Below, one piece after another: positions 2-4,757 of a stretch of DNA of 35,073 bases (position 1 is the first letter of the stretch; each line of letters begins with the position of its first letter). This DNA is from Bacteroidales bacterium (GTDB lineage: Bacteria; Bacteroidota; Bacteroidia; Bacteroidales; JAGOPY01), in the NCBI GenBank assembly GCA_019429045.1, contig JAHYJL010000010.1, positions 1-35,073 on the forward strand, read 5' to 3'. The translations under genes and the position numbers were made by a program. The notes under the pieces were generated by a model. The model ran no database searches. It was not told the origin of the DNA and was given only the letters and a program-made list of their open reading frames with translations.

Positions 2-988
2 AATGTGCGGGTGGTTTTCGGCGATCCCGACCGCGACCGAAAAGCCGACGTGATCCTGGAGAACCATTATTATCCCTTCGGCATGACCTTTGGCGGGCTG
101 GAATATTCCGCCGGGTTGGAGAACCGCTACCTTTACCAGGGCAAGGAGACCACCGGCGATTTCGGCCTGTGGTGGAGCGATTTTTCCGCCCGCCGGTTCG
201 ACAGCCAATTAGGCCGCTGGCACATCCCCGATCCCGCCGGCCAGTTCGCCAGTCCGTATCTGGGCATGGGGAACAGCCCGGTGGCGGCCGTGGATCCCAG
301 CGGTTTATGGGCTGTCGACGGCAGGTTTGCCGAAATGCAAATGCTGCGCCAGGCAGAGCAAAAAGTACGGGATTTTCAGAAGCAGCTAATGGAATCGTTT
401 TCCTATGAGGAGATGGAGCGTGAGCTTGAAATGATGCTCTTATGGGAAGATATATTAAGTGGAAAATACAAAAAGGATGCCGGCATAGGACAACCGGAGC
501 TGGAAGGTAGCCCGGATGATCCGCCGGGGAATAATCTGCAAAACGGAAACAATGGAAATAAGAACCCTGATATTAACAGCCCTGGATTGATCACTCAAGC
601 AGGATTAACATTCACGCTTGCAGCTGGTATTATTGGAGGAAGTATTGAATTCGGAATCGCTTATGATGGTATTAATTATAGTCTATATTTAACATTAGAA
701 CATTCAACTGGTTTTGATATTTCTGCAGGTGGAATCGTAAATGTACTGATCTCGTCTGAAGGACATCTGACTTTTGATCAAGTGGAAGGTTGGGGAGAAT
801 CTTACAATAGTGCAATATGGATAATCGATGGCACCTATGGAGGAGATTCATTTTACCCAGGATTAAAATATGAAGATTACAGAGATATTCATAATACTTA
901 CCAGATTTACGGATTGGGACTCTCTTGGGGTTTGCCAATAGGATTTACAAAGAATAAAGGGTATTCTTGGTATTTCTTAAAATTTTAA
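2..988 (+). CDS. RHS repeat-associated core protein, C-terminal part with variable tip (5' end outside window)
   Basis: This is the 3' end of a large RHS/YD-repeat protein; the frame is open to the left edge, so the start lies outside. Residues about 20-100 are the conserved RHS core end, with YYPFGM, YLYQGKE, DFSARRFDSQLGRW, PDPAGQF, and the NSPVAAVDPSGLW stretch that closes the RHS shell. After a linker rich in Glu, Met and Gln (about residues 104-145) base composition drops from GC-rich to AT-rich, and a tip of about 190 residues follows. The tip is Gly-, Tyr- and beta-rich and I recognise no toxin family or nuclease motif in it. In RHS proteins the shell encloses a toxic C-terminal tip that is autocleaved and delivered to rivals; toxicity of this tip is inference. 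A small membrane-protein gene begins 10 bp after the stop, where a cognate immunity gene is expected. Confidence 0.88.
   Translation, partial: NVRVVFGDPDRDRKADVILENHYYPFGMTFGGLEYSAGLENRYLYQGKETTGDFGLWWSDFSARRFDSQLGRWHIPDPAGQFASPYLGMGNSPVAAVDPSGLWAVDGRFAEMQMLRQAEQKVRDFQKQLMESFSYEEMERELEMMLLWEDILSGKYKKDAGIGQPELEGSPDDPPGNNLQNGNNGNKNPDINSPGLITQAGLTFTLAAGIIGGSIEFGIAYDGINYSLYLTLEHSTGFDISAGGIVNVLISSEGHLTFDQVEGWGESYNSAIWIIDGTYGGDSFYPGLKYEDYRDIHNTYQIYGLGLSWGLPIGFTKNKGYSWYFLKF
223..416 (+). repeat. RHS core-end direct repeat, copy 1 (in the intact gene)
   Basis: About 194 bp covering the end of the RHS core (IPDPAGQF to SFSYEEM). It recurs at 1736-1929 at a constant offset of 1513 bp with about 90% identity. 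Similarity ends where the variable tip begins, which is the pattern expected when tips are exchanged by recombination in the conserved core. Confidence 0.93.
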
Positions 989-998
989 TAATATAGCT

Positions 999-1352
999 AT
1001 GTTTAGACATATTTTTGTGATAGTTTTTTTAATTACATTAATAATAATTGTAATTAGTGGAATTAATAAGCAAATTTTACATTTTAAATTATTGAAAGAA
1101 ATATATCCTTCTCATCTATCGAAGATTAATTCATATTTCAATCCGCTTGCGATTTTCTATCTATTTAGGCTAAAGATTTCAATTATATTTTGGTTTAGTA
1201 TTCCGCTTTATTACAGAAAGATGAATATTATTATTGAAAATAACCGGGTTATCACATTAGAAAAGAAATTATTTTCCAACAATAAAAGAATTTATATGTC
1301 ACTTATCATATTGTTTATATGGATCTTGTTCGGAGTTATTTATTTTCAATAA
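999..1352 (+). CDS. Small multi-pass membrane protein, candidate immunity partner of the upstream RHS tip
   Basis: A 117-residue Ile/Phe/Leu-rich, strongly AT-rich ORF starting 10 bp after the rhs stop. Hydrophobic segments lie at about residues 4-21, 50-72 and 98-116, suggesting an inner-membrane protein with a short basic region between the last two. No family is recognised. Position and low GC match those of immunity genes in polymorphic-toxin loci; a membrane immunity protein would suit a tip that acts in or at the membrane. That role is inference from context only. No strong ribosome-binding site is visible, which is normal in Bacteroidota. Confidence 0.68.
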   Translation: MFRHIFVIVFLITLIIIVISGINKQILHFKLLKEIYPSHLSKINSYFNPLAIFYLFRLKISIIFWFSIPLYYRKMNIIIENNRVITLEKKLFSNNKRIYMSLIILFIWILFGVIYFQ

Positions 1353-1735
1353 GCCAAAGTATTATGGTGGTCTGATATATTAAATAGTCTTACCAGACGA
1401 TAACATCACAGACAGCGAAATGACAAAACTCAATGAATCCTGCACCATTCCACCTCTCCCGTCAATTAGACTGGAGGAGGCCGGAAAAAGTACCGGCTCG
1501 TCCATCGGCAGCAAAATGCCGATGTCTGTTCAGCATAATCATATAGCACATCTTCCATGTCCCATCGCCCATGATGCAATGCAAGTTGGTATTTGGCATA
1601 TAATAATTGGGATATCCCATTGTAAATGGGCACATGGGCGATGGAAGAAGGGCGATGGCGAAGTGTTCCCAGGGTGAAACAAAAAAAAATGAGCAGGATC
1701 TATGATATACCCTCGCCGGGAGGGGCTGGCCGGCC
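1353..1735. other. Gap between RHS modules: repeat element plus a breakpoint region
   Basis: No convincing gene. Positions 1405-1639 are copy 1 of the hairpin-rich repeat described separately. The remaining part, 1640-1735, joins directly to the middle of the RHS core at 1736 and holds a small hairpin (CCCTC/GAGGG around 1711-1725). It does not resemble RHS coding sequence, so it marks the 5' breakpoint of the orphan tip. Confidence 0.6.
1405..1639. repeat. 235-bp structured intergenic repeat, copy 1
   Basis: Matches 3474-3708 at a constant offset of 2069 bp without net insertion or deletion. The part from 1491 onward is about 95% identical; the left part is more diverged. It holds several inverted repeats: GCCGG/CCGGC near 1480-1498, ATCGGCA/TGCCGAT at about 1504-1523, CCATCGCCCATG pairing with CATGGGCGATGG across about 1562-1645, and CCCATT/AATGGG at 1616-1630. 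The last stem is kept by paired changes in copy 2. It sits directly after an RHS tip plus partner gene in both places. Confidence 0.9.
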
Positions 1736-1929
1736 CATCCCCGATCCCGCCGGGCAGTTCGCCAGCCCGTATCTGGGCATGGGGAACAGCCCGGTGGCGG
1801 CCGTGGATCCCAGCGGTTTATGGGCTGTCGGCGGCAGGTTTGCCGAAATGCAAATGCTGCAGCAGGCGGAACAAAAAGTCCGGGATTTTCAGAGGCAGCT
1901 CATGGAATCGTTTTCCTATGAGGAAATGA
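1736..1929 (+). repeat. RHS core-end direct repeat, copy 2 (in the orphan tip)
   Basis: Second copy of 223-416 in the same reading direction. Mostly single-base differences; the encoded linker changes by a few residues (D to G, R to Q, K to R). Its left end is a sharp breakpoint. Confidence 0.93.
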
Positions 1930-2501
1930 TGCGATCACTACAGCAGGAACTATTATGGAACGAGTTTATCGATGATCCATTTGGGTGGGGAGAAGCTAAT
2001 AGCAGACAGATTGATATACCAGAACGTTTGTTGATCAATTCCGAACTTTTAAACCAGCCAACAAGTGTGCCTACTATTGAAGAGATGCAGGCAACAATGA
2101 ACAATGCAATAAAGATAATGAGGCAATTTTATTTATTGCAATTAGAAAATAAAAAACCAGATAAATTATTCTATCCAGTTGACTTCAATTTCAACGGTAA
2201 AATTGGAAGTCCCGATATATTTGGTGGCCGTAACTATCGTTATGATATTACATTATCATTGGGATTGCAGGAGGTATCAGCTGTTTTTATTTTTACCCCT
2301 CATGAAAATCCAATTGCCAATTTTTTAACAAATTTTATTCCTTTAGGTTATCGAAGAAAGTCTGTTTATGAAGTATATACCGGTTACGGTGTAGAATTGC
2401 ATAATTACTATTCACGCATACGTCAATGGACGATTGGTCTTTTGTACTTTTCGAGTTTTGAAGATTATAATAATTTTCTTATATATGTCAGATATCCGTA
2501 A
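1736..2501 (+). pseudogene. Orphan RHS tip (headless core fragment plus a second variable C-terminal domain)
   Basis: The fragment enters the RHS core abruptly at IPDPAGQF, repeats the core end and linker of the upstream gene, then continues into a different 190-residue AT-rich tip (begins near position 1930; contains a Tyr/Phe-rich beta-type C terminus). The upstream flank has no RHS sequence; the only in-frame starts upstream (from 1626) lie in unrelated repeat DNA, so it is unlikely to be made as a working protein alone. It fits the orphan or silent rhs-CT cassettes known from Rhs and CDI loci, which can replace the active tip by recombination in the shared core. The tip itself is not recognised. 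Confidence 0.82.
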
Positions 2502-3393: not shown

Positions 3394-3833
3394 ATAGTTT
3401 TATTTTCGGAAAGTTAATGGAACTCAATTTAGTAAGGTTATTGCAATGCGTAAATGCCAAAGAACGGGAAACTATCACCGACATCAAAATGAACATAATC
3501 AATGAATCCTGCGCCGCAACGCCACTCCCGTCGGTTAGACGGGAGGAGGCCGGAAAAAGTGCCGGCTCGTCCATCGGCAGCAAAATGCCGATGTCTGTTC
3601 AGCATAATCATATAGCACATCTCCCATGTCCCATCGCCCATGATGCAATGCACGTCGGTATTTGGCATATAATAATTGGGATATCCCATAGCATATGGGC
3701 ACATGGGCAGGCGCTGAATGACAATTCTTTGTGAACTTTGTGAGTTCACTCTGAGATCTTTGTGAGATATATTCATGATCGTTGATCTGGATTAAAGACC
3801 GGGAAAGTGAGGAGATTGGGCGGATTCCTAAGC
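3394..3833. other. Gap after the orphan-tip module
   Basis: Holds copy 2 of the structured repeat (3474-3708) and then about 125 bp with a loosely repeated CTTTGTGA word (about 3724-3770). Short reading frames here overlap the repeat hairpins and show no recognisable protein. I see no gene and no further RHS core sequence. Confidence 0.6.
3474..3708. repeat. 235-bp structured intergenic repeat, copy 2
   Basis: Copy of 1405-1639. It has a perfect 8-bp stem CTCCCGTC/GACGGGAG around 3525-3545, where copy 1 carries one mismatch. It retains the ATCGGCA/TGCCGAT hairpin and has a CCCATA/TATGGG stem (3685-3699) where copy 1 has CCCATT/AATGGG. It follows the partner gene of the orphan tip. Confidence 0.9.
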
Positions 3834-4757
3834 TCAAACCTCTAACTTTTTAAAAATCACCAATGAATCCTTTTCTATTCTGGAGAAGGCAAACCACTTT
3901 TTGCCCAAATCCTTCAGCGAAGCACCAATGTGATACGCGTCAGTTTTATCAATTAACAAAAATCGGTCGTGAGAAGCATTAAATGTATTAAGGCTCAGCC
4001 CACCAAACTGTTCGTTAAACTTTTTAGCATCTTCCTTCAAGGCCCGACTAATGTTTTGGGTGTATATGCTCACGCTTACGCCTTTTTTCTTCTTGGTAAA
4101 AAGCGACAGCACGCTTTCATCCACGTAATTGTCAATCAAAATCAGGCTGGATTTTGCGCTTCTAATCAAATCACTTATCAACACCCAGGCATCAAACACT
4201 TGCCCATTAAAAAATATACCCTGCCGGGGTTTGAGCTCTTTCTTTTCCATGGCAATTAGCAGCAATTGCACTTTACTTTCTGTTATAATTTGCCTGGTTT
4301 CCACCTTTTCAATGCGCTTTAAAAGATCTGCATTTTCCATCAAAAAATACCTCATTTCAACAAAGGCATTCATTATAGCAACACTTGTTTTTATGGCTGT
4401 TTCAGAATTGATTACAGCTGACAGCATTGCAACACCCTGCTCTGTAAAAGCATAAGGCAAATATTTTCTATGTTTTCCTCTACCGGTATTTAAGGTGCCA
4501 TTTTGGAACCTTAAATAATCACCCTCTATTGAGGTGCCAATCAGGAATTTCAATTTTTCATGTTCTTCTTTGGTCAATTGGAACATGAAGGATTCGGGGA
4601 ACCGGTCAGGATTTCTTTTCACAGCACGGTTCAGGTATTTGGTTTCGATGTCATACAATTCTGATAAATGCTCATCAATCATCACCTGCTTGCCCCGAAT
4701 GGTAAAAATCCGGTTGATTATTTGCTGCATATACTTTTGCATTGAATGTTCACTCAT
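3834..4757 (-). CDS. ORF6N domain protein with a C-terminal PLD-like domain
   Basis: 307 residues. Residues about 10-100 form an ORF6N (KilA-N related) DNA-binding domain of phage and mobile-element type: IRGKQVMIDEHLSELYDIET, then LNRAVKRN and RFPESFMFQL, and YAFTEQGVAMLSAV following. A short coiled segment (140-175) leads to a C-terminal domain (180-307) like a half phospholipase-D fold, with HDRFLLID (263-270) in the place of HxKx4D, Lys replaced by Arg, and a GASLKDLGKK stretch after it. Such chromosomal proteins are common in Bacteroidota and often sit beside mobile or variable regions, as here. Start is ATG 4757. The role is probably DNA-binding regulation; enzymatic activity is doubtful. 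Confidence 0.85.
   Translation of the reverse strand: MSEHSMQKYMQQIINRIFTIRGKQVMIDEHLSELYDIETKYLNRAVKRNPDRFPESFMFQLTKEEHEKLKFLIGTSIEGDYLRFQNGTLNTGRGKHRKYLPYAFTEQGVAMLSAVINSETAIKTSVAIMNAFVEMRYFLMENADLLKRIEKVETRQIITESKVQLLLIAMEKKELKPRQGIFFNGQVFDAWVLISDLIRSAKSSLILIDNYVDESVLSLFTKKKKGVSVSIYTQNISRALKEDAKKFNEQFGGLSLNTFNASHDRFLLIDKTDAYHIGASLKDLGKKWFAFSRIEKDSLVIFKKLEV

Follow-up and report, generated by a model that had tools for sequence, protein, structure and literature searches.

The window, a stretch of 35,073 nt, opens with the 3′ end of an RHS gene and a small gene for a predicted membrane protein, behind which lies a second, displaced RHS C-terminal frame (RHS-CT) with a partner gene of its own (Table 1). 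As the start of the contig is base 1 of the window, the N-terminal part of the RHS gene is missing, and its reading frame is uninterrupted from base 2 to the stop codon at 986-988.

Table 1. Features of the two RHS cassettes (positions in the window)
Feature	Position	Strand	Basis or remark
3′ end of RHS gene, 328 codons, 5′ cut by contig edge	2-988	+	TIGR03696
RHS core tail common with cassette 2	216-415	+	93.5% to 1729-1928 over 200 bases
PVAAVDPSGL, PxxxxDPxGL-type motif before tip 1	278-307	+	
Variable tip 1: linker and Gly/aromatic-rich domain (about 578-985)	421-985	+	nothing matched significantly in family libraries, among PDB sequences or in the other genomes searched
Partner 1: putative immunity protein of 117 residues, three membrane helices predicted	999-1352	+	ORF, hydropathy, model, one homologue in genome G970
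Downstream repeat, copy 1	1405-1639	+	89.8% to 3474-3708 over 235 bases
Displaced (orphan) RHS-CT frame with the different tip 2	1626-2501	+	ORF
RHS core tail of displaced cassette 2	1729-1928	+	sequence comparison
Partner 2, one N-terminal membrane helix	2485-3393	+	ORF from 2434; 302 residues from the ATG at 2485
Downstream repeat, copy 2	3474-3708	+	89.8% to copy 1

A profile search placed the RHS-associated core (TIGR03696) at residues 23-102 of the truncated RHS protein (E 6e-12, 45.9 bits against a cut-off of 32.5), which bears out the initial annotation of this frame as an RHS end. The core is followed by PVAAVDPSGL, a PxxxxDPxGL-type motif which we take to be the autocleavage site preceding an RHS toxin; a second copy of PVAAVDPSGL is found at 1791-1820, in cassette 2. 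The RHS core, the motif and a small gene directly 3′ of the tip, three of the features by which membership of the RHS toxins is judged, are all present at the locus. In RHS proteins, an aspartyl autocleavage frees the C-terminal toxin, according to the cited part of PMC10684867. When the N-terminal part of a 1190-residue RHS protein with a DUF6443 domain, from a genome of the same family as the window genome (G548), was used as the query against genome G000, no match was found, in a search that had no positive control.

After the motif come, in this order, 40-54 residues common to both cassettes, a linker and a domain of some 136 residues that is rich in Gly and aromatics, and the unique tip (tip 1) starts where the DNA match to cassette 2 ends, at 415 or 420. 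The last 150 residues of tip 1 consist of 16% Gly, 16% Tyr, Phe and Trp taken together and 13% charged residues, in line with its first description as Gly/Tyr-rich. It had also been called unrecognised, and beyond the RHS core it indeed matched no Pfam, NCBIfam or PADLOC family and no PDB sequence; a search of Pfam at E up to 10 returned no family, Ntox25 (PF15530) included, and PHROGs gave a single insignificant match (E 0.14). Profile searches of the family libraries matched tip 1 to no catalytic family and to no structural or adhesin family, the kind of match that the initial annotation had set against a toxin. The AlphaFold2 model of tip 1 from its single sequence has a pLDDT of 36.7, too low to use, and the strands in it are no evidence for the beta structure called probable in the initial annotation; it is the composition of the tip that suggests one.

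Homologues of tip 1 were sought in six frames in 395 genomes of the phylum, 393 of the order and 395 of the class, in draws that partly overlap and at E limits of 0.01, 0.01 and 0.1, respectively. Besides the window's own genome, weak matches were obtained in two genomes of the phylum, three of the order and 21 of the class. On reading of their ORFs, none of these 26 matches was an RHS tip; they were propeller, NfeD-like, outer-membrane, glycosyltransferase and other proteins, 11 of the 21 class-search matches being judged by the best local match, not always the identical stretch. Pattern scans, which reach close relatives only, gave 68 matches in genome contigs and four in viral contigs, none of which was confirmed, and no match was found in plasmids and phages. 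Likewise, a phmmer search of 133 loci, most of them with RHS cores, returned nothing else below E 0.7. Tip 1 having neither a homologue nor a usable fold, its activity is thus unconstrained.

The gene behind tip 1 starts after a spacing of ten bases from the tip's stop codon. Its product has three separate hydrophobic segments, and a single-sequence model gives helices at residues 2-35, 37-46, 49-80 and 88-116 (pLDDT 75, pTM 0.34), which agrees with the 117-residue, three-helix membrane protein initially described. Because only four of 5000 sequences simulated at the local composition had an open frame of at least 117 codons in any of three frames, and because a homologue exists elsewhere, the gene can hardly be a chance frame. 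In the class, a search with the partner returned 72 of 395 genomes, its own included, at E up to 0.1, and rescoring of 30 of the returned loci (own included) with a two-sequence profile left only L045, in genome G970, as convincing; the next best, L059, proved spurious on reading. The homologue in G970 is also 117 residues long (E 2.1e-4, 25% identity), and an ungapped alignment of 107 residues scores 116, compared to 48 ± 9.7 for local shuffles, none of 2000 being as high. No match to the partner was found in genome contigs, viral contigs, plasmids or phages, and a second match within G970 was a 265-residue protein of another kind.

At L045:1471-1824, the homologue stands alone, flanked by the end of a gene and a transposase-like ORF. 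The transposase-like ORF is downstream, some 500 bases upstream hold no same-strand ORF of at least 50 codons, and there is no RHS tip beside the homologue at this locus. A search of 20 relatives of G970, one congener among them, did not find it, which is what a mobile or orphan immunity gene would lead one to expect. The homologue is naturally read as an orphan immunity gene, but a small membrane protein of different function would give an identical picture. As to the co-occurrence of tip and partner, tip 1 was found in no other searched genome and the single homologue of the partner is without a tip.

We compared the two cassettes of the window. Cassette 2 follows the same plan as cassette 1 (core tail, tip, partner, repeat), its partner gene overlapping the end of tip 2. 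Similarity between the tips is confined to the 54 residues that follow the motif (70%), and the two partners share no significant similarity. As a displaced RHS-CT with its own partner and with core homology to the main gene, cassette 2 has the features of an orphan rhs-CT. In both cassettes, a tip and a partner that differ lie between two repeats that are common, which suggests that the exchanged unit is probably the tip together with its partner, as in known main/orphan rhs toxin-immunity loci. The GC content, 0.59 in the core, drops to 0.36 in tip 1 and 0.22 in its partner, which fits swapped-in DNA. In the window's own genome, the long downstream repeat occurs at two places, 1405-1639 and 3474-3708, and the remaining four matches are all short or weak, three covering 32 bases at 91% and one covering 119 query bases at 69%; this repeat is a candidate for a downstream anchor for exchange or, alternatively, for a small mobile element.

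Several other elements were seen around the cassettes. A 12-base inverted repeat, CCATCGCCCATG, lies around repeat copy 1, with arms at 1562 and 1633. Three other contigs of the genome also carry a 32-base piece of the 235-base repeat. Directly behind the cassettes, on the - strand at 3834-4757, there is an ORF6N-domain protein (PF10543, E 1.2e-31), presumably a phage- or mobile-element-type regulator.

The closest parallel in layout is the main/orphan rhs-CT/rhsI locus of Salmonella, for which the cited part of PMC3967940 gives evidence of recombination between the core copies and of cognate immunity. As in the window, a small gene lies behind the rhs end and a displaced RHS-CT comes next, again with a partner gene; the core stretch common to both copies measures 522 bp at 95% in Salmonella (PMC3967940) versus 200 bp at 93.5% in the window. 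Unlike the Salmonella locus as described there, the window has a second repeat (235 nt, 89.8%) behind each cassette.

RHS loci were also examined in related genomes, in a family-level search of three genomes and in the order, where 217 of 393 genomes have an RHS core at E ≤ 0.001 (207 above the family cut-off). The congener G440, with five RHS core matches in its whole genome, carries four core copies in tandem, 1.6-1.8 kb apart (L015:4572-11075), and behind each of them lie a separate tip frame and one more ORF. One of these four cores holds a TAG, and no full-length RHS ORF was found in the 19 kb examined around the array; GAGACTCCATCTC-type repeats are located near some of its cassettes. 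In G548, a 174-residue multi-helix membrane partner lies behind a tip dissimilar to tip 1.

To place the pair among the tips of the order, we sampled 133 loci: 100 regions of listed cores, 30 loci of the core search, the window and the loci of G440 (L015) and G548 (L016). A regular expression for the core end recovered 71 distinct tips from 47 loci, 12 of which have two or more tips (50 tips with a stricter expression), fewer than the cores among the matches listed. The longest candidate partner ORF starts within 60 bases of the tip stop in 64 of the 71 tips. At helix counts that depend on the hydropathy threshold, it has two or more membrane helices in 13 cases, including that of the window, one helix in 24 and none in 27, runs off the end in three and is missing in four. 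With a multi-helix partner behind 13 of 71 tips, in what is a sample of listed cores and not a census, membrane-partnered RHS tips are therefore a regular minority form in the order, and tip 1 is not special in this respect. The Gly content of the tips was not significantly related to a membrane partner in a rank test (p 0.18; 0.30 without the window), and a Fisher test at a Gly cut chosen post hoc gave p 0.04 (3/5 vs 10/66); we treat this as no association.

Some membrane-partnered cassettes of the sample are related to one another. Homology was detected between the tips of L167 and L176 (E 1.6e-23), each of which has a membrane partner, and a weak relationship between the partners of L167 and L154 (E 6.9e-5). 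Tips from three genomes, L161 (stop 7686), L167 (stop 878, - strand) and L176 (stop 1218, - strand), have a similar Trp/Gly-rich end with W[SD]IGWxLG, and with YGPSxWF in two of them; multi-helix membrane partners are present in two of the three. They are candidates for a recurrent family that would be better suited to study than the singleton tip 1.

Taking these results together, the explanation towards which we lean is that of an antibacterial RHS tip acting at the membrane and guarded by a membrane immunity protein, with cassette 2 as a spare. We infer toxicity, immunity, a membrane target, a beta fold and recombination at this locus, which could fit together as follows. The RHS shell would serve as carrier of the C-terminal piece, which would be set free behind PVAAVDPSGL; the first 40-54 residues of the released piece are those common to both cassettes, and the remainder, tip 1, would be the variable effector. 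The 117-residue membrane protein would be the immunity protein of tip 1, and the membrane location of this putative immunity protein suggests a membrane target, so that tip 1 may act in or at the target-cell membrane and its partner may block it within the bilayer. Most plausibly, tip 1 would be a small membrane-depolarising domain, Ntox25- or Tse4-like in action, which is our best guess for a Gly/aromatic-rich, weakly charged domain that matches no enzyme. Cassette 2 would be a displaced spare, able to replace tip 1 via recombination between the shared repeats. The toxin/immunity pair proposed in the initial annotation gains from the finding of one cassette between shared repeats and from the recurrence of multi-helix partners. 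Counting against the favoured explanation are the failure to find a homologue or a usable fold for tip 1, the position of the partner's homologue away from any RHS tip, the absence of a Pfam toxin match at E up to 10 and the lack of association between Gly content and membrane partners. The description as a new pair holds in the weak sense that tip 1 is an unmatched singleton; an RHS tip with a membrane partner is a kind of pair already well known, and swap-in pairs are common.

This proposal can be set against membrane-acting toxins that are already characterised. Disruption of the membrane potential has been reported for Ntox25 domains (PF15530; CDI toxin type 14), and there are beta-barrel models of Ntox25 and Tse4 with the immunity proteins modelled on them (PMC11630599, in the part cited). 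The likeness that we propose for tip 1 is that of a small membrane-depolarising domain; unlike Ntox25, tip 1 matches neither the Ntox25 nor any other Pfam profile, and its carrier is an RHS protein. The same part of PMC11630599 describes CDI type 10 toxins as alpha-helical ionophores forming a five-helix bundle, with CdiI proteins predicted as two-helix hairpins of 72-100 residues. The window's partner resembles these CdiI proteins in being a small, very hydrophobic membrane protein behind a polymorphic toxin tip, and differs from them in its three predicted helices and its 117 residues; nothing favours a five-helix-bundle tip. With Tse5, as described in the cited part of PMC10684867, the locus shares an RHS carrier and would share an autocleaved C-terminal membrane toxin, which is pore-forming in Tse5, and a cognate immunity gene. 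Tip 1 matches no PDB chain, but the Tse5 toxin domain is itself said not to be resolved there (PMC11630599, same part).

A more far-reaching form of this explanation, which we put forward tentatively, is that tip 1 may be the first member seen of a new and unrelated family of RHS toxins, small and membrane-inserting, whose own family of three-helix immunity proteins also circulates alone as orphan immunity genes. We regard as clearly less likely than the favoured explanation that the cassette encodes a genuine RHS toxin-immunity pair in which the tip is another envelope or cytoplasmic effector, for example, a periplasmic or lipid enzyme, and the partner sits in the membrane only to meet the toxin. 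Sampled tips of quite different composition do have multi-helix partners, and since one such tip in L161 (stop at 2689) ends in an apparently HINT/intein-like sequence, the mechanism cannot be read off a membrane partner; on the other hand, no catalytic family matched tip 1, and its richness in Gly and aromatic residues with few charged ones (13% of the last 150) argues against such an effector. It is improbable that the cassette is decaying or cryptic, a remnant that is inactive today, in the manner of other singletons from rapidly shuffled arrays. The lack of close relatives of tip 1 and its partner in the searches and the TAG in one of the four array cores of G440 would agree with decay, but the frames of tip 1 and of its partner are both intact, the latter staying open for 117 codons in DNA of 22% GC (four of 5000 simulations). 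Least probable, by our estimate, is a structural or adhesive C-terminus next to an unrelated small membrane ORF, which the compositional resemblance of some rejected tip 1 matches (L017, L029, L027, L031 and L032) to outer-membrane beta-barrel proteins and the absence of a tip adjacent to the G970 homologue would favour, but which no adhesin or structural family match supports and for which a second cassette repeating the plan with a dissimilar tip and partner would be needless.

In summary, what is new at this locus is a singleton tip with no detected relatives, in a cassette whose plan is already known. If the pair works as toxin and immunity protein, the membrane-acting RHS effectors would gain a tip for which no relatives were detected, and immunity genes that travel independently of their toxins could be traced through the single homologue of its partner.
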